Notes under the pieces: generated by a model
Told to the model about the DNA's origin: nothing
What the model saw: the letters and a program-made list of their open reading frames with translations, nothing else
Databases searched by the model: none
Virus record (IMG/VR): IMGVR_UViG_3300029319_000504
Span: 1-24,097 of that record
Reading direction: 5' to 3' (one strand)
Length of the DNA stretch: 24,097 bases
Source of the DNA: a virus
Translations under genes and position numbers: made by a program
Shown: positions 1,156 to 18,339 of the stretch, one piece after another
Position numbering within the stretch: the first letter of the stretch is position 1
How the letters are laid out: every line of letters begins with the position of its first letter

Positions 1156-1163
1156 ACTACTTA
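1156..1163 (+). promoter_or_regulatory. ACTANTTA motif (ACTACTTA)
   Basis: Copy of the recurring intergenic motif, 46 bases upstream of the ATG of the 1003-residue fibre-like gene. It sits in the 123-base gap after the 160-residue gene, in the context TAACTACTTATG. Read as a putative late promoter element; see the finding on the motif. Confidence 0.5.
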
Positions 1164-1201
1164 TGTATAGTTGTCAGAAATAAGGAGTAGGAGAACAAGA
1201 A

Positions 1202-4200
1202 ATGCCACTTTATTCAGATAGATTATTCGTTACCGGTTCAGGAACCACATTTAACATTTCCGGGTCTTCAGCATTAGGAGATGCTGCAGACGATATTACA
1301 ACCTGTACAGGACAGTTTACTGGTTCGCAGGGTGCAACATTTTCCAAACCTATTGATATCACAGACGCTAGGGATGCCGTAGATAATAGCGGCGATACCG
1401 GCGCTCTTAAGGTTGAAGGTGGTGCCAGCATTGCCAAGAGGGTGTTTGTTGGAACTCACCTGCTTGTCTCTGGTTCTGCAGAGGTGGCTGGAAACCTAAC
1501 TGTTGGTGATGGCGGTGCAGAAGATCAAAAGATTGTTCTTGACGGTAATGCAGTAGATTTCTATCTTGGAATCGATGATGATGATGACACATTCAAGCTT
1601 GGTCTAGGTTCAGCAGTTGGAACTAATGCTGCACTTACATTTGATAATTCTGGGAAAGCTAAGCTTCCCCTAGCGCAGGGTCTTTCTGGATCTGGTCCTT
1701 TGGAATTTGCGGGTGAAACAACTCTAGGTAGCACGCTAACTGTTTCCGGATCTACAACATTGGGTAGATATGCATCAACTGTTGCAACCGTAACGAGTCA
1801 GCTAACTGCCTCACAGGGTGCGACGTTCTCCCTACCTGTTGACATAACAAGCACTAGGGACGCTGTCGATAATAGTGGTGATACTGGTGCTCTGAAAGTA
1901 GAAGGTGGTGCCAGCATTGCCAAGAGGGTATTCGTTGGCACTAATTTGCTTGTCTCTGGTTCTACTGATTTAGGAAGTGATTGTGCTGATGTCTTGAACA
2001 TAAGTTCTCAATTAACAGCCTCATGTGGTGGTTATTTTACCAAGGCTGTTGGTATTGGTTCGCAGGGCCCTGGCCAGGGTACATTATATGTTAGCGGTTC
2101 TCAGGATTCTGGTATTCCCAGTCTTCGTGTTGACCATGCTGATGAGAATGTTATAGGCATAGATATTAATACATTTAACACAACAGCGAATGCTGTTGAT
2201 ATTGCGGCCGATCGACTTACATTAGGCCACATGGTTTCTGCCTCTGCTGGTGCTTTGACTTCCGGCAGTATGTTGGTCCTTGCCTCCGATAGCCCTTCCT
2301 CGGCAGCCCGAACCTTGGTCAAGATAAGAAATGATAATGCTTTGGCAACGAACACAACTAGTCTCCATGTTTTCCAAGGCTCGCGACCAAGCGGCAGTCA
2401 CGATGATAACTTAGGTGCGGCAGTTATGATAGAAACACCTGCTGCTGGGTATACCGAAGACTTGTTGTCCTTGACAAACACAAATGCAGATGCTAATGGT
2501 CCAACAATGAGTTTTGTAAAGGAAGCAGAAGGAAGCGCTGCCGATGATGATGACCTTGGTGTTATCAAATTCGATGGCCTTGATTCAGGCGACGACGAAC
2601 ATACATTTGCTAAAATTCTCGTTGAATCATCTGACGTGACCGATTCAGCAGAGGGTGGAAAGATGACTTTCAGCCTTGCGGCTACCGGTAGCTTAAGAGA
2701 ACTTCTGACACTTGGAGGTGCTGACGCTGCTAATGGCACTCATTGTGGAGTTGTTGTCAATGAGGGCAGTTATGACTGCGACTTCCGTGTTGAATCAAAT
2801 GATGAAACTCACATGTTGTTTGTGGATGCTTTAAGTAATCGGATTAGCATTGGTGATTCGACTGATCTTCCTGCAGCAACGTTGGAATTAACAAATAATG
2901 CTTCTGCGGGTGCATCTGGCGTTCCGCTTTTTCAACTTAATAGTAACGATGTTGATCAGATAGGAATGGATCTGAACTTTGCCAACACAACAGCAGTGGC
3001 TATGGATATTGACGCTTCTAATACGACGGCGAACGTGTTCGATATCGCTGCTGATAGTCTCACACTAGGACATATGATGTCTGCTTCGGCAGGTGCCTTG
3101 ACTTCTGGTAGTATGTTGGTTCTGGCTTCCACCAGTCCTTCTGCAGGAGCTAAGAGTCTGGTTAAGATTAAGAATGACAATCCTTTGGCATCAAATACAT
3201 CTTGTCTTCTCATTCAACAAGGTGCTCGCCCAAGTGGTAGCCATGATGACAATATCGGATCAGCAGTTATGGTAGAAACTGCAGTGGCTGGTTACACCGA
3301 GGCGCTTTTGACATTGTCAAACTTAAATGCAGATGCAAACGGCCCAGTATTGAGCTTTGCGAAAGAGGCTGAAGGGAGTGCCGCTGATGATGATGATCTT
3401 GGTATTATCAATTTTGTGGGTCTTGATTCGGCCGATGATGAAGTAACGTTTGCTCAAATTCTCGCTGAATCGTCTGACGTAACTGATAATGATGAAGGTG
3501 GTAAATTAACTTTTAATGTCGTGGCTGGCGGTACAGCTGGTACTGCTGCTGCGGCAAACCTCTTCTCAATTGGTGGCGAAGACGTTGCAAATGGTACTCC
3601 TTGTGAGGTTGTTGTCAATGATGCAAGCATCGATTGTGACTTCCGTGTTGAGTCAGATGCTGTTACACATATGTTCTTTGTTGATGCCGGAAACAATAGG
3701 ATTGGTTTTGCCAACTCTGCGCCAGAGGCAGCGTTGTCTATAGGTTCCGGAATGCACACCATCACCTCTGACGTGACCGTTACATCAGCTGATAGCGGAG
3801 ACAACACGGTTATTGCTCAATTACCTGGTGTGGTTATACCACAACACGCCATTATCACAAGAGTTATTGCTGTTGTTAAAACTGCTTCCAACTTGAGCAC
3901 ACACCTCTGCAATATTCAATTATCTTCTACTAATGGAACAGCGGCTGATAGTAGCATTTCATCTGGTACCGAGATTCTTGGTGCAGGTATGGGCGCTGAT
4001 GCAGAAGATGCTTATAGCACCGATAATCCTGGTGGAGATACAAAGGAAGACATCAATCTTAAAGAAGCAAAAGAGGTCTTCTTGAGCGAAGGAATTCTTT
4101 CAGTCGATGCTGACAAATTTGTTTATGTTTGCAATGCAGGCACAGGAAACGGCACAAGCAATGCATCTTCGGGTGTTCTTACAGTTATTATAGAATATTT

Positions 4201-4213
4201 CGGAATGACTTGA
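1202..4213 (+). CDS. Large repeat-rich fibre-like virion protein (1003 aa)
   Basis: A 1003-residue protein rich in G, A, S, T and D with no enzymatic motif, typical of phage fibres. It is modular. A 55-residue block occurs twice (about residues 38-92 and 200-254), and a much larger block of roughly 250 residues occurs twice (about 304-553 and 573-839). L-x-V-S-G-S turns recur in the N-terminal third, and clusters of four or five aspartates occur near residues 122-126 and in each large block. The last 160 residues are unique and beta-rich, which fits a terminal binding or trimerisation domain. It shares a 25-residue motif with the 431-residue protein at 4805. Start supported by AAGGAG and GGAG upstream. 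Because it lies next to head genes, a head fibre is as possible as a tail fibre; the receptor is unknown. Confidence 0.8.
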   Translation: MPLYSDRLFVTGSGTTFNISGSSALGDAADDITTCTGQFTGSQGATFSKPIDITDARDAVDNSGDTGALKVEGGASIAKRVFVGTHLLVSGSAEVAGNLTVGDGGAEDQKIVLDGNAVDFYLGIDDDDDTFKLGLGSAVGTNAALTFDNSGKAKLPLAQGLSGSGPLEFAGETTLGSTLTVSGSTTLGRYASTVATVTSQLTASQGATFSLPVDITSTRDAVDNSGDTGALKVEGGASIAKRVFVGTNLLVSGSTDLGSDCADVLNISSQLTASCGGYFTKAVGIGSQGPGQGTLYVSGSQDSGIPSLRVDHADENVIGIDINTFNTTANAVDIAADRLTLGHMVSASAGALTSGSMLVLASDSPSSAARTLVKIRNDNALATNTTSLHVFQGSRPSGSHDDNLGAAVMIETPAAGYTEDLLSLTNTNADANGPTMSFVKEAEGSAADDDDLGVIKFDGLDSGDDEHTFAKILVESSDVTDSAEGGKMTFSLAATGSLRELLTLGGADAANGTHCGVVVNEGSYDCDFRVESNDETHMLFVDALSNRISIGDSTDLPAATLELTNNASAGASGVPLFQLNSNDVDQIGMDLNFANTTAVAMDIDASNTTANVFDIAADSLTLGHMMSASAGALTSGSMLVLASTSPSAGAKSLVKIKNDNPLASNTSCLLIQQGARPSGSHDDNIGSAVMVETAVAGYTEALLTLSNLNADANGPVLSFAKEAEGSAADDDDLGIINFVGLDSADDEVTFAQILAESSDVTDNDEGGKLTFNVVAGGTAGTAAAANLFSIGGEDVANGTPCEVVVNDASIDCDFRVESDAVTHMFFVDAGNNRIGFANSAPEAALSIGSGMHTITSDVTVTSADSGDNTVIAQLPGVVIPQHAIITRVIAVVKTASNLSTHLCNIQLSSTNGTAADSSISSGTEILGAGMGADAEDAYSTDNPGGDTKEDINLKEAKEVFLSEGILSVDADKFVYVCNAGTGNGTSNASSGVLTVIIEYFGMT
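1313..1477 (+). repeat. Fibre repeat A, copy 1
   Basis: Encodes about residues 38-92 of the 1003-residue protein. It is nearly identical in protein sequence to copy 2 at 1799, including D-A-V-D-N-S-G-D-T-G-A-L-K-V-E-G-G-A-S. A 29-base stretch within the repeat (from GAAGGTGGTGCC) is identical in the DNA of both copies. Confidence 0.9.
1799..1963 (+). repeat. Fibre repeat A, copy 2
   Basis: Encodes about residues 200-254. Same block as copy 1, ending with L-L-V-S-G-S. The near-identity at DNA level suggests a recent duplication or gene conversion. Confidence 0.9.
2111..2860 (+). repeat. Fibre repeat B, copy 1
   Basis: Encodes about residues 304-553 of the 1003-residue protein. It contains L-T-L-G-H-M, S-A-G-A-L-T-S-G-S-M-L-V-L-A-S, R-P-S-G-S-H-D-D-N and E-G-S-A-A-D-D-D-D-L-G in that order, all recurring in copy 2. 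Confidence 0.9.
2918..3718 (+). repeat. Fibre repeat B, copy 2
   Basis: Encodes about residues 573-839. It follows the same order of blocks as copy 1, but has a short extra segment near its start (an additional N-T-T-A-x-x-x-D-I unit) and a small insertion near G-G-T-A-G-T. Many silent differences show that this duplication is older than repeat A. Confidence 0.88.
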
Positions 4214-4225
4214 TAAGATTGACTA

Positions 4226-4522
4226 ATGAACGATGACTCAAGCAAAATCGTCACCATTCTCTATGAACTCTGTCAGTCACTAATCTTTAGTTTAGATATG
4301 ACTCTCGACAATCATGAAAAGTTTGTTGCGATCTTAGACAAGCTCTCTCCAATAATTAGCAGAACAAGTCTCGGTCAATACTTCGACGAGACAAGAAAAG
4401 ATATCGTGAAAACTACAAAAGAAGATCGTGAAGCTTTGCAGGAATCCATTCAATTTCTTGAAACTATGAAGAAACAATGGGAAGAGAGAACAAATAATAA
4501 AGTTGATATAACTTATAACTGA
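4226..4522 (+). CDS. Small helical protein of unknown function (98 aa)
   Basis: A 98-residue, charged, almost entirely helical protein starting 12 bases after the fibre stop. The ribosome binding site is weak, so translation may depend on coupling to the fibre gene. The C-terminal half (K-E-D-R-E-A-L-Q-E-S-I-Q-F-L-E-T-M-K-K-Q) fits a coiled coil. It has a single cysteine, no glycine-rich turns and no membrane segment. I do not recognise a family. A small helical protein directly behind a large fibre gene could be a fibre-folding chaperone, comparable in size and fold class to T4 gp57A, but that is only positional inference. Confidence 0.7.
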   Translation: MNDDSSKIVTILYELCQSLIFSLDMTLDNHEKFVAILDKLSPIISRTSLGQYFDETRKDIVKTTKEDREALQESIQFLETMKKQWEERTNNKVDITYN

Positions 4523-4529
4523 TTGTCGA

Positions 4530-4537
4530 ACTAATTA
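4530..4537 (+). promoter_or_regulatory. ACTANTTA motif (ACTAATTA), within a palindrome
   Basis: Lies 37 bases upstream of the ATG at 4567. It is embedded in the perfect 12-base palindrome AACTAATTAGTT at 4529-4540, so this copy cannot by itself show an orientation. Confidence 0.45.
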
Positions 4538-4566
4538 GTTTGATTATCTGAGGAGGATAGTAGTAA

Positions 4567-4776
4567 ATGCCAAATGTTGGTTCAATAGGGTGGGCTTATG
4601 TTTCTGGCTCTACATCAATCGATGTTAACTATAACGCCTCAACGTTAAGCGAGGACACTACCATTCCGGGAGGCTATTTTTCTGTCTTATATGGTCCTTT
4701 TAGAATAGGTGAGGGTGTCACGTTTACGATTCAGGCTGACGCCAAGGTAAAAATTAAAGACTTTGACGATGTTTAA
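4567..4776 (+). CDS. Small beta-rich virion-like protein (69 aa)
   Basis: A 69-residue protein with a strong GAGGAGG ribosome binding site. The N-terminus holds a V-S-G-S turn like those in the neighbouring fibre-like proteins. The second half (Y-G-P-F-R-I-G-E-G-V-T-F-T-I, then A-K-V-K-I-K-D-F) resembles the short beta-strand modules found at the ends of many phage structural proteins. No signal peptide or membrane segment. It probably belongs to the same fibre or decoration assembly as its neighbours, perhaps as a small tip or collar subunit. The exact role is unknown. Confidence 0.72.
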   Translation: MPNVGSIGWAYVSGSTSIDVNYNASTLSEDTTIPGGYFSVLYGPFRIGEGVTFTIQADAKVKIKDFDDV

Positions 4777-4804
4777 ATCTAATTAATAAAGGGAAACATA
4801 AAAC

Positions 4805-6100
4805 ATGAGTACACTGTATGTAAACACTATTTATCCACAATCTGGCGACTATATTGCGCTCTCTGGAAACCTGGAAGTTTCTGGGACGATCAAGTCATAC
4901 GAACTACGCACGATCACTGAATCAACATATCGCGGGTCTTCGTTTTTTGGTAACGACTATACCAATGACATGCATCAATTCACTGGGAGTCTCCAAGTAT
5001 CTGGCTCCGGGATTACGCTTACCGCCGGCGGTGGCAGTGCTGCTACTATAACCCTTAAGGCTGATGCCGCACAAGACTCGGCAGATACAACTACTATTAC
5101 TACTGGCGACGGTGGCGACTTTACAGTTGATTGCGCTGCTGATATTATTTTAGATGCTGATGGTGGTTCTTTATTCTTTAAAGATGCAGGCACACAGTTT
5201 GCTGCTCTTAGCAGTGTTGATGGTTTTACTGTTAACGCTCCCTTGGGCGTCAGTGGTTCTGTAACCCTTGGTGACGCTGCAGCAGATGTTACGACAGTAA
5301 CGGGCCAATTAACGGCATCTCAGGGTATCCTCGCCACGTTAAATTCTAGTTTTAATGCAAATGTTACTCTAGGAAATGCTGCATCAGATATTATAACTTC
5401 AACAGGGCAGTTAACAGCATCCCAAGGCGTCTCTGCTACCAAGATTCTAAGTTCGGGTGACATGACCCTTGATTTTGATGGTGGTGATCTTTTCTTTAAT
5501 GATGCTGGCGTACAGCAAGGTGTTCTCAAAGTTGATACTGGGAATAAGTTTATCTTATCTTCTAGTTCCCCCAGCGATGATTTCTATTTGATGTCTGGGC
5601 GAGATATTTTCCTTGATGCCGATGGTGCGGATATTACTTTTCAAGATGCAGCCACTTCATTCTTAAAATTCTCTAACAGCAGTGCGGATTGTGTTATAAC
5701 AAATGGGGCTGCTGATAAAGACATCATGTTTAAGGATGCTGGCGGTAACGAAGTTTTCAGAATGGATGGTAGCGAAGAAGCCTTGCTAATGGCTACTAAT
5801 AAAAAAATAATGTTTCATGATGCCAGTGAATACATCGTGAGTGATGCCACAGATTTGACAATTGCTTCTGGAGGAGATATTATTCTAAATCCTTCCGGTG
5901 GCGATGTTTTGCCAGATGCTGATTCCACTCGAAGTTTAGGTTCCCCCTCAAAGCGCTGGGCTAACATATATACCGGTGACTTACATCTTAGGAATAATCG
6001 CGGCGACTGGACAATCTTGGAGGAAGAGGATTTCCTTTGCGTCGTTAATAATAAAACAGGTAAAAAATATAAGATGATGTTGCAGGAATATGAAGAATAG
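4805..6100 (+). CDS. Fibre-like virion protein with R-W-x-x-I-Y C-terminal domain (431 aa)
   Basis: A 431-residue G/A/S/D/T-rich protein. Two copies of the 25-residue motif shared with the 1003-residue protein start near residues 155 and 189 (T-L-G-D/N-A-A...G-Q-L-T-A-S-Q-G). From about residue 117 a second repeat recurs about four times, with the pattern D-x-D-G-G-x-L-F-F-x-D-A-G. The C-terminus has the L-G-S-P-S-K-R-W-A-N-I-Y-T-G-D-L-H segment, then R-G-D-W-T-I and N-N-K-T-G-K-K-Y-K-M. That ending is common in fibre-like proteins of marine phages and probably forms a trimeric tip or attachment domain. The ribosome binding site is modest (AAGGGAAAC). Tail or head fibre cannot be decided from sequence. 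Confidence 0.8.
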   Translation: MSTLYVNTIYPQSGDYIALSGNLEVSGTIKSYELRTITESTYRGSSFFGNDYTNDMHQFTGSLQVSGSGITLTAGGGSAATITLKADAAQDSADTTTITTGDGGDFTVDCAADIILDADGGSLFFKDAGTQFAALSSVDGFTVNAPLGVSGSVTLGDAAADVTTVTGQLTASQGILATLNSSFNANVTLGNAASDIITSTGQLTASQGVSATKILSSGDMTLDFDGGDLFFNDAGVQQGVLKVDTGNKFILSSSSPSDDFYLMSGRDIFLDADGADITFQDAATSFLKFSNSSADCVITNGAADKDIMFKDAGGNEVFRMDGSEEALLMATNKKIMFHDASEYIVSDATDLTIASGGDIILNPSGGDVLPDADSTRSLGSPSKRWANIYTGDLHLRNNRGDWTILEEEDFLCVVNNKTGKKYKMMLQEYEE

Positions 6101-6162
6101 AACAGTAAAAGCTTCTTCTATCTTGTAATCTCTACAAATAAGGTCATTTAAAGATCATAAAT

Positions 6163-6170
6163 ACTATTTA
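6163..6170 (+). promoter_or_regulatory. ACTANTTA motif (ACTATTTA) before scaffold-capsid operon
   Basis: Lies 50 bases upstream of the scaffold start, in the 12-mer ATACTATTTATT at 6161-6172, which recurs exactly at 13549. Here it overlaps CATAAATA (6156-6163), a 7/8 match to the T4 late promoter TATAAATA. Together they form the palindrome ATAAATACTATTTAT. Confidence 0.55.
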
Positions 6171-6212
6171 TTTGTGGATATCTTATTATTAATATTATAG
6201 AAGGAGTTATAT

Positions 6213-7202
6213 ATGTCATCGATGCTAGAACAAGCTATTGTGGATGCTAAATCCCTAAGAGAAGCAGCCATCCGGAACGCAGAGGAAACTTTGGTTGAGA
6301 AGTACTCTGACGATATCAAGGAGGCTGTTGAAAAACTTTTAGAACAAGACGAAACCGCGCCTATCCTCGAACAGGAAGAGGAGGCCGCTGTGCCTAACCT
6401 TCCCTTGGCGGCCACAGATGGTGAGGATGTTTGTCCTTGTCCAGATGAGGCAGAAGAGGTTGAATTGGATTTGGGAGATATTAAGAGAGAATTATCCGCC
6501 CTTGAAGATATGAATGCTCCCCTTGGTGCTGCAGAACCCCATTCTGCAGTCGCAGCAGCCCTAGAAGAGGGTCAAGAGGTTGAGCTAGAAGAGGACGAAG
6601 AAATTGAACTCTCCGAAGAAGAGCTTTCCGACCTCCTGGAGAAAGTCATTGTCGACATGGCTCCTGTTTCTAATGGTTGGGCAGGTCGCCCACAATCGCA
6701 GCTTGAGTTTGAGAAAGACAAACACCTCGCTGTGTTGGCTCAAGAAGAAGAAATTGATGTCTTGAAGAAAGAGAATAAGAAACTTGAAGGAAAACTAGCT
6801 AAACTTCAAGAGTCTGTTGAATCGCTTAAATCGCGAGAAGATAAATATAAAGAAGTTGTTACTTCATTAAAAGAAAAATTTGATGAAATGACCCTTTCTA
6901 ATGCTAGATTGGTTTATACGAATAAGGTTTTGAATAGTGACTCTTTGAATGAGCGGCAAAAACAAAAAGTTGCCGATGCTATTTCTAATGTAAGTTCGGC
7001 AGAAGAGGCTAAAGTAATTTTCGAAACTCTTCAGAACGCAGTGGGATCCGCACCGTCTAGGCGGCGAGGACCGAAATCACTGAGTGAAGCAGTAGAGAAG
7101 AGAAACTCATCCTTGCTGGCCAGCCGCCGCAATAAGCAGCCAAAGTCAGACGTGCCGGATGGTGCTAAGAGTCGTATGCAACGACTCGCAGGAATTAAAT
7201 AA
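6213..7202 (+). CDS. Prohead core scaffold protein, gp22-like
   Basis: A 329-residue protein directly upstream of the major capsid gene, the position of gene 22 in T4. Composition fits a scaffold: a helical N-terminus (A-K-S-L-R-E-A-A-I-R-N-A-E), a very acidic middle (about residues 40-150, with runs of E and D), a strong coiled coil (about 175-230, L-K-K-E-N-K-K-L-E-G-K-L) and a basic C-terminal tail from about 280 ending R-L-A-G-I-K. Scaffolds form the inner core of the prohead and are normally destroyed by the prohead protease. Several L/I-x-E tripeptides that could be cleavage sites are present. AAGGAG supports the start, and the capsid gene follows after 18 bases. The primary sequence is too divergent to name from motifs alone; context carries much of the call. 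Confidence 0.8.
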   Translation: MSSMLEQAIVDAKSLREAAIRNAEETLVEKYSDDIKEAVEKLLEQDETAPILEQEEEAAVPNLPLAATDGEDVCPCPDEAEEVELDLGDIKRELSALEDMNAPLGAAEPHSAVAAALEEGQEVELEEDEEIELSEEELSDLLEKVIVDMAPVSNGWAGRPQSQLEFEKDKHLAVLAQEEEIDVLKKENKKLEGKLAKLQESVESLKSREDKYKEVVTSLKEKFDEMTLSNARLVYTNKVLNSDSLNERQKQKVADAISNVSSAEEAKVIFETLQNAVGSAPSRRRGPKSLSEAVEKRNSSLLASRRNKQPKSDVPDGAKSRMQRLAGIK

Positions 7203-7220
7203 AAAGGAGAATTTAGAAAA

Positions 7221-9122: not shown

Positions 9123-9148
9123 GCAATAGCTAACGGCTAATAAAGAAG

Positions 9149-9176
9149 CCCGCCCCTTTTTGGGGCGGGTTTTTTT
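9149..9176 (+). terminator. Intrinsic terminator after the capsid gene
   Basis: Perfect 8-bp stem CCCGCCCC/GGGGCGGG with a T5 loop, followed by T7. It ends the scaffold-capsid transcription unit. The next ACTANTTA motif starts 30 bases later. Confidence 0.95.
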
Positions 9177-9205
9177 GTTTCTTATGGATTAATCCAAAAG
9201 TCGAT

Positions 9206-9213
9206 ACTATTTA
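9206..9213 (+). promoter_or_regulatory. ACTANTTA motif (ACTATTTA) after first terminator
   Basis: Lies 61 bases upstream of the ATG at 9267 and 30 bases after the capsid terminator. It is part of ATACTATTTATA and overlaps TATAAATG (9212-9219), a 7/8 match to the T4 late promoter TATAAATA. Confidence 0.6.
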
Positions 9214-9266
9214 TAAATGAAACGAATTAAGGCGAATAGCCTAAATTAAAAAGGAGATTTAAAAAG

Positions 9267-9719
9267 ATGAGTAAGTTAGGAAGATACGCAGCGGATAGAA
9301 AAAAGATTGAAGAAGTTAGCGCAGCGAAGACACTCGTACAGGCAGATTGTGGTACAATTTTCATGTTGGCCTCTGGTAGTGCTGATTACACGATTACTTT
9401 GCCCACGGTTGCAACCGCTGGTAAAGGTTGGTGGTGTAAATTTGTTCTTGGTTTTGCCCCTTCCTCCGACACAAACAACGTCACGATTGCACAAAGCACG
9501 GATGACACAAACAACATTGTTAATGTAACTGTTGTTCATGGTCCTGCTAACCGATTGGCAGCCCATAGTGCCTCTTTCCTTCATACTGGTGATGGTGCTA
9601 ATTTCGACCTTTCCTTTGGGGCGATTGGAGATACTTTAGAACTCTTTACCAATGCCACCAAGTGGTATGGGCAAGCTATTTGCTCCTCTTCTCTGAGCAT
9701 TGGGCAGTATGACGCTTAA
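9267..9719 (+). CDS. Putative capsid decoration protein, copy 1
   Basis: A 150-residue protein with AAGGAG upstream, forming a single-gene unit between two terminators. A short basic helical N-terminus (M-S-K-L-G-R-Y-A-A-D-R-K-K-I-E-E) is followed by a beta-rich domain. A-D-C-G-T-I-F near residue 26 and T-L-P-T near 44-47 match A-D-S-G-M-T-L-F and Q-L-P-T in the next gene, so the two look like distant paralogues. This strand-turn pattern is common in small virion surface proteins. Position right after the major capsid gene suggests decoration of the head, similar in role to T4 Hoc or Soc but with no sequence link to them. It could also be a head fibre. Confidence 0.7.
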   Translation: MSKLGRYAADRKKIEEVSAAKTLVQADCGTIFMLASGSADYTITLPTVATAGKGWWCKFVLGFAPSSDTNNVTIAQSTDDTNNIVNVTVVHGPANRLAAHSASFLHTGDGANFDLSFGAIGDTLELFTNATKWYGQAICSSSLSIGQYDA

Positions 9720-9750
9720 TAAAAACTAATCTTCTTAACATCTGAATATT

Positions 9751-9782
9751 AAACCCCACGTTTTCACAGCGTGGGGTTTTTT
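9751..9782 (+). terminator. Intrinsic terminator after decoration gene 1
   Basis: A 10-bp stem, AAACCCCACG/CGTGGGGTTT, with a 9-base loop, followed by T residues to 9782. The outer nine base pairs recur in the terminator at 10425. Confidence 0.93.
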
Positions 9783-9790
9783 ATTGGATA

Positions 9791-9798
9791 ACTATTTA
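9791..9798 (+). promoter_or_regulatory. ACTANTTA motif (ACTATTTA) after second terminator
   Basis: Starts nine bases after the terminator and 51 bases upstream of the ATG at 9842. Context ACTATTTATTGTATAA resembles the copy at 10465. Confidence 0.6.
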
Positions 9799-9841
9799 TT
9801 GTATAAACCGGAGATATCGGTGTTCAAGGAGGTGTATTATC

Positions 9842-10390
9842 ATGGCAAGAAGAGTGGGGACAGCGAGAGTAGAGGCGCTTTTGGAAGCGCAAGCAAGAGA
9901 GATTGCTTGGGGAGGTAGCACTAGCTTTAAGGGCCACAAGGATGTGGTTGAAACGTTGTCTGCGGTTGGAACTGTTGGTTCGCCAACAAAAACATTAACA
10001 GCAGCAGATTCAGGTATGACATTGTTTTGTGATATCAGTTCGAACAGTGTTGTTATTCAATTACCAACCCCAGAGGCCGGTCTAAACTATAAGATAATCT
10101 TATCAACCGCCAGTGATGGCGAAGGTACTTACGATCTTTTAATTCATACAGGTAGTAGTAGTATTGATATGGGCGGCAATATATTGATTGCTGGTGCTAT
10201 TGTGGAAATCACAAGTGGCACTTCGGCAATTCATATCGATAGCTCTCAGGGCGGAGGCAATCTAGCAACTGTCGGTGATTACTTGATATTTGATTGTGAC
10301 GGAACCGATTGGTATGTGCAAGGCAGCGTCCGCAACACCGGTGCTGGTGCCATAGCTGATGCTTTTGACGGTATTACACCGCAAGCATAA
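9842..10390 (+). CDS. Putative capsid decoration protein, copy 2
   Basis: A 182-residue protein with a perfect AAGGAGGTG ribosome binding site, again alone between two terminators. Its basic helical N-terminus (M-A-R-R-V-G-T-A-R-V-E-A-L-L-E-A-Q-A-R-E) parallels that of copy 1 but is followed by about 30 extra residues. The beta domain has A-D-S-G-M-T-L-F near residues 55-62 and I-Q-L-P-T near 72-76. It ends with W-Y-V-Q-G-S-V and a short acidic tail; copy 1 has W-Y-G-Q-A at the matching place. The conserved order of these blocks argues for common descent despite low identity. A virion surface role is inferred from position and fold type. Confidence 0.7.
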   Translation: MARRVGTARVEALLEAQAREIAWGGSTSFKGHKDVVETLSAVGTVGSPTKTLTAADSGMTLFCDISSNSVVIQLPTPEAGLNYKIILSTASDGEGTYDLLIHTGSSSIDMGGNILIAGAIVEITSGTSAIHIDSSQGGGNLATVGDYLIFDCDGTDWYVQGSVRNTGAGAIADAFDGITPQA

Positions 10391-10424
10391 GATTATTTTT
10401 TCGATATCAGATTATTAAATGATT

Positions 10425-10460
10425 AAACCCCACTTCTTCCGAGAGGTGGGGTTTTTCTTT
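10425..10460 (+). terminator. Intrinsic terminator after decoration gene 2
   Basis: A 13-bp stem (10425-10437 with 10442-10454, one G-U pair) and a TCCG loop, followed by TTCTTT. Its outer nine base pairs, AAACCCCAC/GTGGGGTTT, are the same as in the terminator at 9751. Confidence 0.94.
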
Positions 10461-10464
10461 TTAA

Positions 10465-10472
10465 ACTACTTA
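10465..10472 (+). promoter_or_regulatory. ACTANTTA motif (ACTACTTA) after third terminator
   Basis: Starts five bases after the terminator and 29 bases upstream of the ATG at 10494. Context ACTACTTATTATATAA aligns with the copy at 9791. Confidence 0.6.
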
Positions 10473-10493
10473 TTATATAACCCAGGAGGTATT

Positions 10494-10787
10494 ATGGGAA
10501 AGAAAAGAAGAGCAATGAAGTTTCCTCAAAAGTTTGGAAACAAGTTTGGTAGAAAATTTGCTTCAGTTTTAAAGATTGAAACAAAGCAGGAAGTTGTGAA
10601 ACCAGAGCCAGAGCCGATTGTTGAAGAGGTTGTGGTTGCTGCCAAGCCAGAACCAATCGTAGAGAAGCCTGTTCCAAAGGTCACAAAGAAAGCACCAGTA
10701 AAGCGCAAAACGACCACGAAGCGGAAGGTTACTAAAAAATCCACCACAAAGCGAACCAAAAGAACTACGGTAAAGAAAGATAAGTAG
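10494..10787 (+). CDS. Lysine-rich, histone H1-like tailed protein (97 aa)
   Basis: The start is the ATG at 10494, behind CAGGAGGT. An upstream in-frame ATG at 10419 is rejected because it lies before the terminator hairpin. The 97-residue product has three parts: a basic head (residues 1-27, with F-P-Q-K-F-G-N-K-F-G-R-K-F), a proline/glutamate hinge with two P-E-P-I-V-E-like repeats (about 34-58), and a tail of about 35 residues made almost only of K, T and R in repeats such as K-R-K-T-T-T-K-R-K. This resembles the disordered C-terminal tails of histone H1-like and bacterial HU-tail proteins, which bind DNA non-specifically. A virion internal protein contacting packaged DNA is plausible but unproven. 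Confidence 0.8.
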   Translation: MGKKRRAMKFPQKFGNKFGRKFASVLKIETKQEVVKPEPEPIVEEVVVAAKPEPIVEKPVPKVTKKAPVKRKTTTKRKVTKKSTTKRTKRTTVKKDK

Positions 10788-10792
10788 TTTTA

Positions 10793-10841
10793 CACCGCCA
10801 ACAACTAATTATATCCGAGGAGATATAATTTAATGGCGGTG
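10793..10841 (+). promoter_or_regulatory. Nested stem-loop covering the gp13-like start
   Basis: The perfect 8-base inverted repeat CACCGCCA (10793-10800) / TGGCGGTG (10834-10841) places two bases of the ATG (10833-10835) in the right arm. Inside it, ATATC (10811-10815) pairs with GATAT (10822-10826), leaving CGAGGA of the ribosome binding site in the loop. The left arm begins six bases after the stop of the lysine-rich gene. Confidence 0.65.
10804..10811 (+). promoter_or_regulatory. ACTANTTA motif (ACTAATTA)
   Basis: Lies 29 bases upstream of the ATG at 10833, inside the loop region of the nested stem-loop. If transcription starts downstream of this motif, the left arm of the outer stem is absent from that transcript. 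Confidence 0.45.
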
Positions 10842-12128: not shown

Positions 12129-12134
12129 TAAGCG

Positions 12135-12623: not shown

Positions 12624-13530
12624 AACACAAGAAATACCATTTATGCCCTCCACTCTGGAAACTGTTGATTTTGCAATCTATCATTGGTTACGAGACGAAT
12701 TGAATCTCCACACGACGACCCGTGAGGGCTTTGAGAAGGTTCCTGTTATTTGGTCCTCTGCAGAGCGAGCGTTTCAGGTAAAAAGAGACAAGGATATCAG
12801 AGATCAAGATGGCACCTTGGTTTTGCCTCTAATAACGATCGAAAGAACGAATGTTGTGAAGGATCCGACAAGAAAAGGCAGTGCTTGGGCAAATATTCCG
12901 CCCACTAGAGATGCAAAAGGCGGTACTTCAATAACAATTGCGAGAAGAATAAAGCAAGACAAGACTGCCAACTTTGCTAATGCTGATTCATGGAGGAAAT
13001 CTGTCGATGCGGGCGCCGGCGGCCGCGCTCTGAACCCTTCAGGCCAATCCTCAGTTAATCAGCGCACATTTCCTCGTCGTACTGATACTTTTGGTCGCCA
13101 AGGAACGAACCCTAAAACTGTGTATCAGACAATTACGATTCCAATGCCTGTGTATTTAGATATTACCTACTCAATTATGATTAGAACTGAATACCAAGAA
13201 CAGATGAATGATTTGGTTACTCCTTTTATGACAAGAACTGGTGGAATTAATTATTTTCTTGCAAGTCATGATGGCCATCGTTTTGAATCTTTTATACAAA
13301 CCGACTTTGGTCAAGACAATAACGTTGCCTCTATGGAAACCGAGAATAGAAAATATGAAACCAAAATCGACATCAAGACCCTTGGTTATATCATCGGAGA
13401 GGGCAAAAACCAAGAGCAACCAAAGGTTGTTGTTCGTGAAAATGCTGTGGAAGTTAAACTCCCGAGAGAGAAAGTAATATTCGGAGATATTCCAGAGCAT
13501 ATAGATAAAAGAGGATTTTACAAAGAGTAA
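12613..13530 (+). CDS. Tail completion / sheath terminator, gp15-like
   Basis: The ATG at 12613, with AAGGGG seven bases upstream, is preferred over the TTG at 12610, giving 305 residues. The N-terminal half has an L-P-L-I-T-I-E-R strand followed by a variable R/K/G-rich insert (about residues 90-170). The family core is in the second half: I-P-M-P-V-Y-L-D-I-T-Y-S-I-M-I-R-T-E-Y, then Q-E-Q-M-N-D-L-V-T-P-F. This parallels the strand and helix of gp15 that carry D-D-M-x-Q-x-V-E-Q-I-L-P-Y-F in T4. gp15 caps the finished tail, stabilises the sheath and joins it to the neck. The gene lies immediately before the sheath gene; in T4 the terminase genes 16 and 17 separate them. Confidence 0.72.
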   Translation: MPARTQEIPFMPSTLETVDFAIYHWLRDELNLHTTTREGFEKVPVIWSSAERAFQVKRDKDIRDQDGTLVLPLITIERTNVVKDPTRKGSAWANIPPTRDAKGGTSITIARRIKQDKTANFANADSWRKSVDAGAGGRALNPSGQSSVNQRTFPRRTDTFGRQGTNPKTVYQTITIPMPVYLDITYSIMIRTEYQEQMNDLVTPFMTRTGGINYFLASHDGHRFESFIQTDFGQDNNVASMETENRKYETKIDIKTLGYIIGEGKNQEQPKVVVRENAVEVKLPREKVIFGDIPEHIDKRGFYKE

Positions 13531-13550
13531 TTCTTTTGAATCTTTAATAT

Positions 13551-13558
13551 ACTATTTA
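13551..13558 (+). promoter_or_regulatory. ACTANTTA motif (ACTATTTA) before the sheath gene
   Basis: Lies 49 bases upstream of the sheath ATG in the 12-mer ATACTATTTATT (13549-13560), identical to the one before the scaffold gene at 6161. This gives the two most highly expressed structural genes, capsid and sheath, the same element. Confidence 0.58.
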
Positions 13559-13599
13559 TTAGAGACAAACACCATTTATCAACAAGGAGACTCTAGCAT

Positions 13600-16560
13600 A
13601 TGTCAATATCAAAATATAAGTTTGTATCACCAGGAGTTTTTGTTAATGAAATTGACGAAACACAACGTCCTGCAGTGACACCGGATCGAGGTCCGGTAAT
13701 TATTGGTCGAACTTCTCGCGGCCCTGGAATGAGGCCGACACAGGTTAATTCTTTTTCTGAATTTATTGAAACTTTCGGTAACCCTGTCCCCGGTGGGCGC
13801 GGTGGAGATGTTTGGAGAAATGGAAACTACACTTCACCCATGTATGCTACTTATGCAGCACAGGCTTGGCTAAGAAACGGCCGAACTTGTACGGTCATAC
13901 GCCTCCTTGGTGCTGAACATACTAATAAAACTACTGCCGGTAAGGCTGGTTTTGGTGATTATTCCAGAACTTCGCAAGGTGGTGGTAGTTATGGACTCTT
14001 TTTGATTGATTCTGGTTCGTCGACTCAAGAATTAACTGGAACATTGGCGGCAATATGGTATTTCCCCACAGGAAATGGTGGAATTAAGTTATCTGGTTCA
14101 ATTAGAGGTGCCGGCGGCACTACTGGTGTTAAGGTAGCGACAACTGGTTCTGCTGTGATGGTTGAGTCAGCCGAGGCTAATTATGGTTTCAAGGGCTTGA
14201 TTTGTTCTGGCACCACTGCTGATAAGCAAATTAACTTCAATTTTGATCCGGATTCTGATAGATACATTAGAAAAGTATTCAACACTAATCCGATTTTGAC
14301 AGATTCAACTATAACTGATTCTGCTAATTTAGAGAAATACTTTCTGGCCCACACGTTTGACAGAGCCGTTCGAGACACAGTGTCTGGAAGTGCTGCTGGT
14401 AGTTGTTATGGTTTCCTTTTAGGCTTGGGTGACTCTGGTGATGACGAATTCCAATCAGTTGAATTTTCTGACTTTAAGTTTGGCGGCCGCGCAGCAGAAA
14501 CCGGCTGGATTATTTCTCAGGACTTGAGAGGTTCTACAACCGCTAATTTCAATCCTGAGTCTACGAGTTATGTCACGAGGCTTTTCAAATTTAAAGGCCG
14601 AGACGTCGGAGGCTGGGACAATGCGAATCTTAAGATTTCTATTGCCAACATTAAAGCGTCTCCAAATGAAGATGTAGATCCATATGGTACGTTTGATGTT
14701 GAGATTCGCGATGCCAGAGATTCGGATCACGCTAAGCGAGTCCTTGAGCGATACACTGCCTGTAATTTGAATCCAAACTCACCGAACTTTATCGCAAGAA
14801 AGATAGGTAATGTTCACTTCTCTTGGGATGATAATGAGAGAAGATTTAGACAATATGGAGATTATCCAAATATTTCTAAGTTTGTTTGGGTCGACCTAGA
14901 TCCCGATGTTTCCCTGGGCCAGGCAAAGGCTGAATTGCTTCCTTTTGGTTTCCATGGTCCTCTGAGACCGAGCCCTTTCTGGCTTCGGGCAACCAACGAA
15001 ACTAGCGCTCTGACCGGTACGATGACGGAATTCCTCAGTTCTGGCACTGGCGGTGGAACTGCCGGCGCAACTTTTGCTACTTCAAGTGCAACTTCTCAAG
15101 GCAGTCACACTGAACACGGTTCGCGTATAACTGGCTCTCATGCAGCCCAGCTTTCTGGTGGTTTCTGCAGTGGTTTCGGAGCACTTGCAACTAGTTCCTT
15201 TATCTATCCGACGATTGCTCTTCGTAGTTCCTCTGCGGACGTGCAATTGGCCAACCCACGTATGGCTTACTTTGGATATGATTCTAGAAGGGCTGGTTCG
15301 GACGATCGATACGATCCTAGCAACAATGATATCCTACGTCCGCTTCCGGGTAACATTACATCAACGGGCACAGACGTGGAGCTTGGTTGTGTATTCACTC
15401 TTGATGATTTAAGAGTTGATGAGTTAATTTCCGGTAAGCTGGGTGTTGCTACATACGAGTCTGGCTCTAGATTGGCCGGAACCTCTGCTACTGCACTGAG
15501 TGGTAACTACAAGTGTATTATTGATGACCACGGATTCAATAAGTTCACCACACCGTTGTTTGGTGGATGGGACGGTGAAGATATCACCAAGTCAGATCCT
15601 TATGCTAACAACAATATTGGTAGCACTGAGCAAACCAGTTATGTTTATAATACTTGGAGAAGAGCAATTGATTCTTGCACAAATCCTGAAGAAGTTGATT
15701 TCAACTTGATGGTTGCTCCCGGTATGACGAACGAGTCTCTTAATGACTTGATGATTTCTGTTTGTGAGAATCGCGGAGATGCTTTGGCAATTACTGACTT
15801 GCCGGATGTTTATAAGCCCCCATACGAAAGTAATGCAAACAAAACATTCAGCGATCGTGTATCACAAACTGTGAATACTCATGTAACAAACTTTAAGAAC
15901 AGAAGAAAGAACTCTTCTTATGGAGCGACCTACTATCCTTGGGTTCAAATCCAAGATAGTCTCAATAACGCTGCAGTTTGGGTACCACCCTCTGTTGTTG
16001 TTCTCGGGACTTTCGCTTCTTCTGACCGAGTTGGCGAGCTTTGGTTCGCACCAGCCGGGTTTAACAGAGGTGGGTTGAGCAGAGGGTCTGCCGGCCTCAC
16101 GGTAACCAATGTTACCGAGAAGCTGACTTCTGAGCAGAGAGACAAGCTTTATGAGGTCAATATTAACCCGATTGCTTCTTTCCCGAACGAGGGTATTGTA
16201 GTCTTCGGCCAGAAGACGATGGATGCCACGACTTCGGCACTTAATCGAATTAATGTCCGGAGATTGCTCATCTTCCTTAAGAAGGAGATCTCCAGACTGG
16301 CAAATACAGTGCTGTTTGACCAAAATGTTGCTGCAACATGGTCTCGATTTAAGGGCTTGGTCCTGCCATTGCTGGAAAGTGTCAAGGTTCGGTTCGGTCT
16401 TGAAGATTTCAGAATGGTGTTGGATGAAACCACGACCACGCCGGACTTAATCGACAGAAACATTATGTATGCAAAGATTTTCCTTAAGCCTGCTCGCGCC
16501 ATTGAGTTTATCGCACTTGACTTCATTGTCACGGATAGCGGTGCTGCATTTGAGGATTAA
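13600..16560 (+). CDS. gp18: Contractile tail sheath protein, T4 gp18 family
   Basis: A 986-residue protein. The N-terminus S-P-G-V-F-V-N-E-I-D, then R-G-P-V-I-I-G-R-T-S-R-G-P and F-x-E-F-I-E-T-F-G-N-P is the standard opening of T4-like sheath proteins. The C-terminal 140 residues hold the conserved inner domain: G-I-V-V-F-G-Q-K-T-M, R-I-N-V-R-R-L-L-I-F-L-K-K-E-I, F-D-Q-N and a final A-R-A-I-E-F-I-A-L-D-F. These ends interlock neighbouring subunits and drive contraction. T4 gp18 has 659 residues; the additional 330 lie in the middle (about 110-720), where sheath proteins carry surface-exposed domains rich in G, S and T. AAGGAG precedes the ATG, and the tube gene follows after 51 bases. Confidence 0.97.
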   Translation: MSISKYKFVSPGVFVNEIDETQRPAVTPDRGPVIIGRTSRGPGMRPTQVNSFSEFIETFGNPVPGGRGGDVWRNGNYTSPMYATYAAQAWLRNGRTCTVIRLLGAEHTNKTTAGKAGFGDYSRTSQGGGSYGLFLIDSGSSTQELTGTLAAIWYFPTGNGGIKLSGSIRGAGGTTGVKVATTGSAVMVESAEANYGFKGLICSGTTADKQINFNFDPDSDRYIRKVFNTNPILTDSTITDSANLEKYFLAHTFDRAVRDTVSGSAAGSCYGFLLGLGDSGDDEFQSVEFSDFKFGGRAAETGWIISQDLRGSTTANFNPESTSYVTRLFKFKGRDVGGWDNANLKISIANIKASPNEDVDPYGTFDVEIRDARDSDHAKRVLERYTACNLNPNSPNFIARKIGNVHFSWDDNERRFRQYGDYPNISKFVWVDLDPDVSLGQAKAELLPFGFHGPLRPSPFWLRATNETSALTGTMTEFLSSGTGGGTAGATFATSSATSQGSHTEHGSRITGSHAAQLSGGFCSGFGALATSSFIYPTIALRSSSADVQLANPRMAYFGYDSRRAGSDDRYDPSNNDILRPLPGNITSTGTDVELGCVFTLDDLRVDELISGKLGVATYESGSRLAGTSATALSGNYKCIIDDHGFNKFTTPLFGGWDGEDITKSDPYANNNIGSTEQTSYVYNTWRRAIDSCTNPEEVDFNLMVAPGMTNESLNDLMISVCENRGDALAITDLPDVYKPPYESNANKTFSDRVSQTVNTHVTNFKNRRKNSSYGATYYPWVQIQDSLNNAAVWVPPSVVVLGTFASSDRVGELWFAPAGFNRGGLSRGSAGLTVTNVTEKLTSEQRDKLYEVNINPIASFPNEGIVVFGQKTMDATTSALNRINVRRLLIFLKKEISRLANTVLFDQNVAATWSRFKGLVLPLLESVKVRFGLEDFRMVLDETTTTPDLIDRNIMYAKIFLKPARAIEFIALDFIVTDSGAAFED

Positions 16561-16582
16561 AAATACAATTTTAGATTTAGTA

Positions 16583-16590
16583 ACTAATTA
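16583..16590 (+). promoter_or_regulatory. ACTANTTA motif (ACTAATTA) before the tube gene
   Basis: Lies 29 bases upstream of the tube ATG in the 51-base gap after the sheath gene. No terminator separates sheath and tube, so this would be an internal promoter. Confidence 0.48.
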
Positions 16591-16611
16591 GAGTAAAGGA
16601 GACAAGAGAAC

Positions 16612-17205
16612 ATGGCACAAGCACAATTTTGGGCAACACCCGGATTAGAACCTAAAAGAGCTTATAGGTGGCTTATGCGTTTTGCCAATAACGGTAGTGG
16701 CGATACAGCGAACATCGATGAGTGGTTTATAAAGAAGGTAACCAGACCTAGTTGGTCTTTGTCAGAGACCAAACATAATTTTCTGAATCATACCTTTTAT
16801 TACCCTGGCCGGATAGAATATGATGAGTTAAATGTGACTTTGGTCGATACAATTACTCCAAACGGTGCTGTTAACATGCAAAATCTTTTGATCGCTTCTG
16901 GTTACATCCCCCCGGATGCAGCCGCGAATCGAGGTGCTAATTATGCAACTATCTCCAAGGACGGCTGGGGCACCGGCGGTGCAGGACTGGCAAATGTTGA
17001 GATTGTCCAGCTTAATGAAATGGGCGATGCATTAGAGACATGGCAGTTGAAAAATACTTGGATCAAGACTTGTAAACTCAGTGAGTTGAGTTATGAAGAC
17101 GATGAATTAACAAATATCGAATTGACACTTAGATATGACTTTTTCAAAGTTGAGCAAAGCGATCTGGTCGCCCCGCGCCCCGCAACTTTAATTCGAGCGA
17201 AATAA
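16612..17205 (+). CDS. gp19: Tail tube protein, T4 gp19 family
   Basis: A 197-residue protein directly after the sheath gene, as in T4, where gp19 has 163 residues. Family features are the N-terminal P-K-R-A-Y-R-W-L-M-R-F strand, the I-K-K-V-T-R-P-S-W-S-L-S-E-T-K-H-N-F-L-N-H segment, Y-P-G-R-I-E-Y-D-E-L-N-V-T-L-V-D and the closing E-L-S-Y-E-D-D-E-L-T-N-I-E-L-T-L-R-Y-D. Tube proteins stack as hexameric rings inside the sheath and form the DNA channel. About 30 extra residues (Y-I-P-P-D-A-A to G-G-A-G-L-A) lie in the middle. AAAGGAG precedes the ATG. Confidence 0.94.
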   Translation: MAQAQFWATPGLEPKRAYRWLMRFANNGSGDTANIDEWFIKKVTRPSWSLSETKHNFLNHTFYYPGRIEYDELNVTLVDTITPNGAVNMQNLLIASGYIPPDAAANRGANYATISKDGWGTGGAGLANVEIVQLNEMGDALETWQLKNTWIKTCKLSELSYEDDELTNIELTLRYDFFKVEQSDLVAPRPATLIRAK

Positions 17206-17222
17206 TAAATAAGAGGTGAAAT

Positions 17223-18077
17223 GTGAGAAACAATCAAGACCGCCTAAGAGCGGTCACCGGGGGTGAAAGTCCCCCTGTCCAACAGCCGCAACAAGCGGAA
17301 CCACAACCATTACAATTCGTAACCCCAACAGAGTTCGTTGAGCTTCCTTCAAGGGGGAAGTTTTATCCTGAAGGGCACCCTTTGCACAATGTTGAAGTAA
17401 TAGAAATACGACACATGACAGCAAAGGATGAAGATATCCTTACGTCCAGTGCCTTGCTTAAAAAGGGATTGGCAATTGACAGGTTTCTTCAGAACATCAT
17501 TGTTGATCGATCAGTAAAGATTTCTGATTTATTGGTGGGTGACAAGAATGCTGTTATCTTTGCTGCTAGAATTAGTGGTTATGGTCCGCACTATGAGGCT
17601 AGTATCAGTTGTCCTAGTTGTGCTTCCACGGTACGTTTTAGCTTCGACTTAGAAGAGTGTGAAGTAATGCCTAGCGATGTGTATAAGGATTACGATGTAC
17701 AGTTAACAGACAAGGGAACTTTTATCATTCATGCTGATAGGACCAATCTTGATGTTGAGGTTCGACTGTTAACAGGCAAGGATGAAACCTTCCTGCTGCA
17801 ACAGGCAGAAAGAAAAAGAAAGAAGAAGATGCCAGAAACCAACTTAACTGATCAGCTTCGTAAAATTATTGTATCTGTTGGTGGCAATACAGACCCTAAC
17901 TATATTGAGTCTTTTATTGGGCATATGCCAGCAGCTGATTCCAGAAAGATACGAGGAATCTATCAGAAAATTGTACCTAATATCGATACGACACAGGACT
18001 TTGTGTGCTCTAGTTGTGGCCACGAAGGGGAGGTAAATGTGCCCTTTGGCGCAAACTTTTTTTGGCCTCAACAATGA
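17223..18077 (+). CDS. Baseplate hub / assembly protein, gp26-like, with two CxxC pairs
   Basis: A 284-residue protein starting at GTG, with GAGGTG four bases upstream. The N-terminus is Q/P-rich and low in complexity. The conserved part begins T-E-F-V-E-L-P-S-R-G-K-F-Y-P-E-G and R-H-M-T-A-K-D-E-D-I-L, the opening of the T4-like baseplate hub family related to gp26. It then has C-P-S-C (residues 130 and 133) and C-S-S-C-G (262 and 265), which could form one zinc ribbon. The C-terminus ends F-G-A-N-F-F-W-P-Q. It lies between tube and tape measure, the place of tail assembly chaperones in many phages. Three hairpins lie in codons 6-26, and a T7 run near the stop could allow +1 frameshifting into the next gene. 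Confidence 0.75.
   Translation: MRNNQDRLRAVTGGESPPVQQPQQAEPQPLQFVTPTEFVELPSRGKFYPEGHPLHNVEVIEIRHMTAKDEDILTSSALLKKGLAIDRFLQNIIVDRSVKISDLLVGDKNAVIFAARISGYGPHYEASISCPSCASTVRFSFDLEECEVMPSDVYKDYDVQLTDKGTFIIHADRTNLDVEVRLLTGKDETFLLQQAERKRKKKMPETNLTDQLRKIIVSVGGNTDPNYIESFIGHMPAADSRKIRGIYQKIVPNIDTTQDFVCSSCGHEGEVNVPFGANFFWPQQ
17238..17298 (+). promoter_or_regulatory. Three consecutive hairpins just inside the gp26-like gene
   Basis: H1 is GACCGC/GCGGTC with a 6-base loop (17238-17255). H2 is GGGGG/CCCCC around TGAAAGT (17259-17275). H3 is CCGC/GCGG around AACAA (17286-17298). The start codon overlaps an ATGTGA start-stop sequence at 17221. They may slow or regulate translation; no known riboswitch class is recognised. 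Confidence 0.45.
18057..18063 (+). other. T7 run, possible +1 frameshift site
   Basis: Codons in the gp26-like gene are TTT TTT TGG. A +1 slip on the T7 run gives TTT TTT GGC and stays open through the 55-residue gene to 18249. See the corresponding finding. Confidence 0.3.
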
Positions 18078-18081
18078 TTAT

Positions 18082-18249
18082 ATGGAGCAAGTTTATGAGC
18101 AATTCTTCTTGCTCAAACACCATGGGGGATGGAGCTTTATTGAAGCTTATAACCTCCCCGTTGGTTTAAGGAACTGGTTTATAAAGCGCTTAGCTAAACA
18201 GTTTGAGGACGAAAAAGAACAAGTCGAGAAAGCAAGAAAGAAAAGATAA
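18082..18249 (+). CDS. Small conserved-type tail protein (55 aa), possible assembly chaperone
   Basis: The ATG at 18082 lies four bases after the gp26-like stop; an ATG at 18037 in the same frame would overlap that gene by 41 bases and has no good ribosome binding site. The 55-residue product has an aromatic N-terminal half (Y-E-Q-F-F-L-L-K-H-H-G-G-W-S-F-I-E-A-Y-N-L-P), then L-R-N-W-F-I-K-R-L and a highly charged helix ending in K-K-R. Small proteins with this F-x-x-x-Y-N-L-P-x-x-x-R-x-W-F-I-x-R pattern occur between tube and tape measure genes in related phages. In many tailed phages that position encodes tail assembly chaperones, often made by frameshifting. The role is inferred from position. 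Confidence 0.65.
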   Translation: MEQVYEQFFLLKHHGGWSFIEAYNLPVGLRNWFIKRLAKQFEDEKEQVEKARKKR

Positions 18250-18271
18250 TTCTTTTTTAAACTATCATAAG

Positions 18272-18303
18272 AGGGGTCAGGACATATGTTCTGGCCCTTT
18301 TTT
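18272..18303 (+). terminator. Intrinsic terminator after the tube-hub unit
   Basis: A stem of about 12 bp with three G-U pairs (AGGGGTCAGGAC with GTTCTGGCCCTT) and an ATAT loop, followed by a T-rich run to 18303. An ACTANTTA motif starts 11 bases later. Confidence 0.85.
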
Positions 18304-18313
18304 GTATAACTTT

Positions 18314-18321
18314 ACTAATTA
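18314..18321 (+). promoter_or_regulatory. ACTANTTA motif (ACTAATTA) after fourth terminator
   Basis: Lies 26 bases upstream of the ATG at 18340 and 11 bases after the terminator. It would start the tape measure and baseplate unit. Confidence 0.52.
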
Positions 18322-18339
18322 CCGTTGGAGGATAATAAC

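Follow-up and report, generated by a model that had tools for sequence, protein, structure and literature searches.

A two-part motif before virion genes of uncultured Far-T4 phages: a very likely late promoter and its candidate gp55-like sigma factor

Introduction

Late promoters of phage T4 consist of a -10-like element, TATAAATA, show no conservation at -35, and are used with gp55, gp33 and the gp45 clamp (PMC7892883, PMC2988020). The late motifs of KVP40, 44RR, S-PM2 and Aeh1, defined in silico, are close to TATAAATA (PMC2988020). Natural waters commonly contain Far-T4 phages. Roux 2015 described their transcription control as unknown and, having detected no T4 core transcription-regulation genes in Far-T4 contigs, considered that transcription might differ (PMC4360716). 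The Far-T4 literature that we searched describes neither a promoter nor a late sigma factor, and no promoter description was found in it for the immuto phages or Mel-JY01. Here we analyze a motif, ACTANTTA, that recurs upstream of genes in the virus record IMGVR_UViG_3300029319_000504 of IMG/VR; the stretch studied ("the window") is the whole record of 24,097 bases.

A preliminary description of the window had proposed that this 8-mer is a late promoter element read by a phage-specific sigma factor. The promoter reading stood, but the 8-mer is not the complete element: it forms the -10-like half of a two-part promoter whose -35-like block, at a fixed distance, had not been seen earlier. We conclude that ACTANTTA is very probably the -10-like element of a late promoter of the Far-T4 clade that is read by a gp55-like phage sigma factor. 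Late promoters of the T4 kind, served by a phage sigma factor, are already known; the probable two-part late promoter of these uncultured Far-T4 phages is unlike that of T4.

The motif in the window and in its relatives

The window was searched on both strands for ACTANTTA, giving 15 matches (13 on the plus strand, 2 on the minus strand), whereas dinucleotide-preserving shuffles of the window averaged 2.68 matches and peaked at 9; the motif is far above chance, as had been stated. All ten intergenic copies that had been reported, at 1156, 4530, 6163, 9206, 9791, 10465, 10804, 13551, 16583 and 18314, were recovered, and their distances to the start codon, in this order, are 46, 37, 50, 61, 51, 29, 29, 49, 29 and 27 bases (27-61, where 26-61 had been given). 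The two antisense matches lie at 4532, as a near-palindrome of the 4530 copy, and at 10781, within a gene end.

The annotated phages nearest by capsid protein are an uncultured 484-kb phage (LR756508), the Flavobacterium immuto phages, Microcystis phage Mel-JY01 and Rhodothermus phage RM378, all ranking before cyanophages. By these best capsid matches, the window phage is probably of the Far-T4 type. The motif was surveyed in the window plus 80 viral contigs matched by the capsid protein at 56-67% identity, that is, 81 mutually related contigs and 980 kb, of which 51 kb are intergenic when open reading frames (ORFs) are called by a simple longest-ORF rule. The preliminary description had suggested counting copies by strand and by position relative to genes, and the outcome was strongly positive: 315 intergenic copies were in the sense direction and 6 in antisense, with 119 sense and 19 antisense copies within ORFs. 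Some of these 119 arise because the ORF caller picks the longest start. A de novo search for the most strand-biased intergenic 8-mer returned ACTATTTA, present in 185 gaps in sense and in 0 in reverse.

The association with capsid genes was equally regular. A copy was found no more than 200 nt after the capsid stop codon in 68/76 relatives, with a strong terminator ahead of it in the examples displayed, and upstream of the gene just ahead of the capsid gene in 57/57.

Two-part anatomy of the promoter

Alignment of 292 sites revealed three blocks, with almost zero information outside them. Counted from the first A of the core, the upstream block GG[C/G]nTTT(T) occupies -20 to -13 and a purine stands at +13/+14; the core itself reads ACTA[T 63%, A 21%, C 13%]TTA, in most sites with a further T behind it. 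With so little information in the flanks, the blocks are not accounted for by common descent of the surrounding sequence. Upstream block and core are separated by a spacer of ~13 bases, and the distance to the start codon runs from ~25 to >100 bases. When a model of the upstream block was trained on half of the contigs, its best match fell at the expected offset ±1 in 89/160 held-out sites, as a single peak. In-gene sense copies had a block above threshold in 23% of cases against 77% for the others (Mann-Whitney p 4e-14). Block strength did not compensate for the core variant, with no significant difference between T and A (p 0.33) or between T and C (p 0.43) at the variable position.

Near terminators, a GGGG/GGCCC-TTTT stretch often occupies the upstream-block position (in the window, for the copies at 9791 and 18314), and such a stretch probably doubles as terminator tail and upstream element. 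This coincidence, seen at several sites, could also mean that the block is the mere tail of terminators sited at that distance. We regard this as very improbable, as the block was equally strong in the 259/292 sites that have no terminator-like hairpin, a count to be read with the reservation that the hairpin detector may overlook bulged or long-loop terminators.

The promoter nature of the bipartite motif is well supported. Were RNA to start at this purine, 13-14 bases downstream of the first A, the classical positions would be occupied, -12/-11 by the T-A of the core and about -34 by the upstream block. The promoter would then read GG[C/G]nTTT(T) at ~-34 to -28, a ~13-base spacer and ACTA[T>A>C]TTA(T) at ~-14 to -7 (-6 with the final T), followed by a leader and usually by a Shine-Dalgarno site. 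The preliminary description had named a protein-binding site in the 5' untranslated region (5'-UTR) as the alternative, in which the motif would be part of the transcript and be recognized there by a phage or host protein for translation control or processing. Such an element would show the same strand specificity and the same place upstream of genes. It would, however, need a second promoter in the same short gap wherever a copy lies directly behind the capsid terminator, as in the relatives displayed. The -35-like partner block at a fixed distance, the purine at start distance, the variable spacing to the start codon and the lack of an Rfam match in the window all speak against it as well, leaving a 5'-UTR site with a very small probability.

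Location of the promoter in the genomes

To see where the promoter is used, gaps of at least 40 bases were compared around the capsid gene and around the gene for the sigma factor described below. The motif was present in 253/341 (74%) of the capsid-region gaps versus 15/86 (17%) of the sigma-region gaps (Fisher p 4e-22), and the bipartite form in 238/341 versus 3/86. Sigma regions carry host-type promoters (18 sense versus 3 antisense), several of them near-perfect TTGACA-17-TATAAT with TG. Motif and host-type promoter occurred together in only 5/169 gaps of five large genomes (p 0.001).

A 185-kb relative (G005) illustrates this layout: read in gene direction, its initial 77 kb hold a single motif hit, and all others lie beyond. 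Genes downstream of its hits include those for head-tail adaptor, sheath, tube and tail spike, and the hit-free region holds glycosyltransferases, a kinase-like protein and PhoH, as well as a baseplate wedge gene with a plain ACTANTTA upstream. As expected of a late promoter of the T4 type, the motif stands before virion genes rather than in the early region. Early genes, those of the sigma-gene region included, appear to use ordinary host-sigma promoters.

A gp55-like candidate sigma factor

Following the earlier suggestion to look for a gp55-like sigma factor elsewhere in the genome, we found one in near-complete relatives by a profile match to phrog_234, which was weak (E ~1e-5 to 5e-4 overall, hmmscan E 5e-5 to 5e-4) and was obtained in three large genomes (G005, G006 and G008). 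The protein is conserved, has ~230 residues and at least 346 relatives in viral contigs, and is annotated as a hypothetical protein in immuto and Mel-JY01. Among contigs chosen by the sigma factor alone, ACTANTTA was strand-biased in 19/20 (e.g. 40:3 and 54:4), and a reversed control pattern was unbiased. The window is a fragment without the sigma gene, so the pairing of motif and sigma factor rests on the relatives.

A model built from a 53-sequence alignment had a mean pLDDT of 83. Its residues 13-117 match sigma region 2 (91-96 residues at 2.6-2.9 Å, VIA-align Z 8-9), and the last 88 residues form a conserved C-terminal domain with a pLDDT of 92. In alignment A1 these 88 residues are absent from T4 gp55, and the clamp-binding tail of T4 gp55 has no counterpart in the clade protein. 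The predicted two-domain layout resembles that of sigma-70 factors with regions 2 and 4, the top structural matches of both domains being sigma factors. A search of the PDB with the sigma sequence profile gave no match, and in Pfam, region 4 was not matched, the sequence being too distant, and region 2 was marginal.

We infer that this sigma factor reads the motif. Host RNA polymerase carrying it, with its region 2 and its region-4-like helical C-terminal domain, would start the virion-gene transcripts at the predicted purine, and in the model it is plausible that the C-terminal domain contacts the -35-like block. A host alternative sigma factor could instead read the promoter, given that a GG-rich -35 with a short -10 generally resembles the layout of alternative-sigma promoters. 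Such a reader seems quite unlikely, as phages of hosts from different phyla (Flavobacterium, Microcystis and perhaps Rhodothermus) have the core TATTTA(T) before structural genes, and as the phage sigma factor is conserved and co-occurs with the motif.

In all five relatives examined, a small ORF of ~100 residues overlaps the start of the sigma gene; it possibly encodes a partner protein. RM378 has a clear sigma-70 protein (43330-43929) near its major head gene, with Pfam region 2 and weak region 4. The Far-T4 sigma family profile did not match it, so it may be a different sigma factor; a one-to-one comparison of the family profile with the RM378 sigma was not significant either.

Comparison with T4 and other phages

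Like the T4 late system, the window clade has a -10-like element before virion genes and a phage sigma factor with region 2 as its presumed reader on host RNA polymerase. The elements themselves differ, the clade having ACTATTTAT, consensus ACTA[T/A/C]TTAT, where T4 has TATAAATA, together with a conserved -35-like block, GG[CG]nTTTT, at fixed spacing. KVP40, 44RR, S-PM2 and Aeh1 keep the T4 consensus or alter only -13/-12, whereas the window clade alters the centre and adds the upstream block. The sigma factor, a distant homologue of gp55 by the phrog_234 profile, has ~230 aa and a C-terminal domain, unlike T4 gp55, which has 185 aa, ends in a short clamp-binding tail and lacks region 4.

The proteins that accompany gp55 in T4 were also sought. 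Profiles of gp33 and gp45, which recovered the T4 proteins as a control, had no match in immuto, Mel-JY01 or RM378 and gave, over 11 large relatives, a single marginal hit, to the clamp (E 0.004), although divergent or analogous proteins could escape them. Family-A DNA polymerase was found in 9/11 of the large relatives and family-B in 0/11. These results bear on whether the motif is simply a drifted standard T4-type late promoter activated by gp33 and the gp45 clamp. The -10 position is indeed the same, TATTTATA is two positions off TATAAATA and the sigma factor is a distant relative of gp55. With a conserved -35 block that T4 late promoters do not have (PMC7892883, PMC2988020), and with gp33 and gp45 not recovered as just described, we nevertheless consider simple drift unlikely.

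Given that T4-type gp33 and gp45 were not found, it is probably the C-terminal domain of the sigma factor that contacts the upstream element, whereas in T4 clamp tethering takes the place of such an element. A broader proposal, to which we give slightly less than an even chance, is that late transcription in this part of the T4 family is clamp-free, with a gp55 relative that kept or regained a region-4-like domain reading the -35 block directly and with terminator tails reused as -35 elements. If true, neither gp33 nor the gp45 clamp would be needed, which would suggest that clamp-coupled late transcription in T4 is a derived state. The finding opens a direct test of whether the replication-coupled late transcription of T4 is ancestral or derived. 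The analysis defines a very probable late promoter for Far-T4 phages and proposes its sigma factor, and temporal gene classes become readable from sequence in uncultured phages.

Related motifs were present in the annotated phages. In immuto, TATTTAT (a CTATTTATA-type motif), mostly with AC or GA ahead, precedes ~19 structural genes and is followed by two A at +13/+14. Mel-JY01 has ATATTTAT before structural genes, and RM378 has TTATTTAA close to several gene starts; in the huge phage LR756508, no clear motif was seen in the stretches examined. The core TATTTA therefore appears to be shared more widely, with the GG-TTTT block clear only in the window clade. A separate long repeated upstream element, ~TATATTTAGGTATCAATAATTAAAAC, occurs in immuto at 60-76 kb amid small unknown genes and is possibly an early promoter of that phage.

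Several observations weigh against a two-part promoter read by the gp55-like sigma factor. The sigma gene lies outside the 24-kb window, and 1/20 of the contigs chosen by the sigma factor showed no strand bias (14:11). The upstream block is poor in 3/10 window copies (4530, 10465 and 16583). At the 19 sites of immuto, a phage whose sigma factor shares the C-terminal domain, a clear GG-TTTT block was not seen. The best matches of the C-terminal domain, region 4 of SigA, SigE (with -35 DNA), SigH and SigF, have a modest Z of 5-6, and a Foldseek search with this domain was not significant (E above 1). Finally, the sigma family and T4 gp55 showed no significant similarity when their profiles were compared one to one.

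Promoter copies and neighboring genes in the window

All promoter copies described here are on the plus strand. Three with the core ACTATTTA and an upstream block of their own are copy 3 (6142-6176; block GGtcaTTTa, core 6163-6170, score 20.0), before the scaffold-capsid genes at 6213 and 7221; copy 4 (9186-9219; block GGattaat, core 9206-9213, score 15.6), before the gene at 9267; and copy 8 (13531-13564; block TTcTTTTg, core 13551-13558, score 18.3), before the tail sheath gene at 13600. The 12-mer ATACTATTTATT is shared, as had been noted, by the copies before scaffold-capsid (at 6161) and sheath (at 13549). The two 7/8 matches to TATAAATA mentioned earlier were likewise found, CATAAATA at 6156-6163 and TATAAATG at 9212-9219.

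Four intrinsic terminators had been said to precede copies of the motif, and all four do so, with hairpins at 9149-9169, 9751-9779, 10425-10454 and ~18272-18297; the last, with a 10-base loop, was read by eye, the hairpin scan covering loops of 3-8. The first of them (terminator 9149-9177, plus strand, from the hairpin scan) follows the major capsid gene, and the same order of terminator and motif is seen in the relatives displayed. Terminator and promoter are combined in copy 5 (9751-9804), where the terminator tail GGGGTTTT stands in the upstream-block position and the core ACTATTTA (9791-9798) precedes the gene at 9842 (score 18.2), and in copy 10 (18272-18327), where GGCCCTTTT takes that place and the core ACTAATTA (18314-18321) precedes a gene starting at 18341 (ATG) or 18325 (TTG; score 18.3). 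Copy 6 (10425-10478) also follows a terminator; its upstream block is shifted, and its core ACTACTTA (10465-10472) precedes the gene at 10494 (score 11.2).

Among the remaining copies, copy 7 (10784-10817; block GtagTTTT, core ACTAATTA at 10804-10811, score 14.8) stands before a head-tail adaptor-like gene at 10833. Copy 1 (1136-1169) has a weak block, GGacgaTTC, and the core ACTACTTA at 1156-1163 before a long repetitive structural-like ORF at 1202 (score 12.9). Copy 9 (16563-16596; core ACTAATTA at 16583-16590, score 6.3) has a weak upstream block before the tail tube gene at 16612, and copy 2 (4510-4543; core ACTAATTA at 4530-4537) is weak (score 5.0), having no clear block before the gene at 4567. 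A weaker variant, TCTAATTA at 4778-4785 (4758-4791; score 8.8), is perhaps an eleventh promoter; its upstream block is partial, and the gene at 4805 begins 27 bases further on.

The in-gene copies at 4826-4833 and 20965-20972 (ACTAGTTA) were as previously described, but they are not the only two, a third sense copy at 335-342 having been overlooked. None of the three has an upstream block, and each is probably due to chance. A generic scan for host sigma-70 promoters gave 45 promoter-like sites in the window versus 34 in shuffles, none of them at the motif, and this candidate was set aside. No tRNAs were found in the window.

Shine-Dalgarno sites precede 13/21 genes in the window versus 1/53 in immuto of Flavobacterium. 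Far-T4 phages are usually linked to Flavobacteriales. This contrast, together with the near-perfect TTGACA/TATAAT early promoters in relatives, suggests that the host of the window clade is probably not a member of the Bacteroidota.

Among the genes of the region are those for the major capsid protein (phrog_138), a head-tail adaptor, tail sheath, tail tube and a baseplate hub protein. Two internally repeated proteins (1003 aa and 431 aa), fibre- or decoration-like in appearance, are encoded at 1202-6100, and a gene for ribosomal protein S21 (phrog_21469) lies at 368-586; Mel-JY01 has one too, close to its capsid genes.

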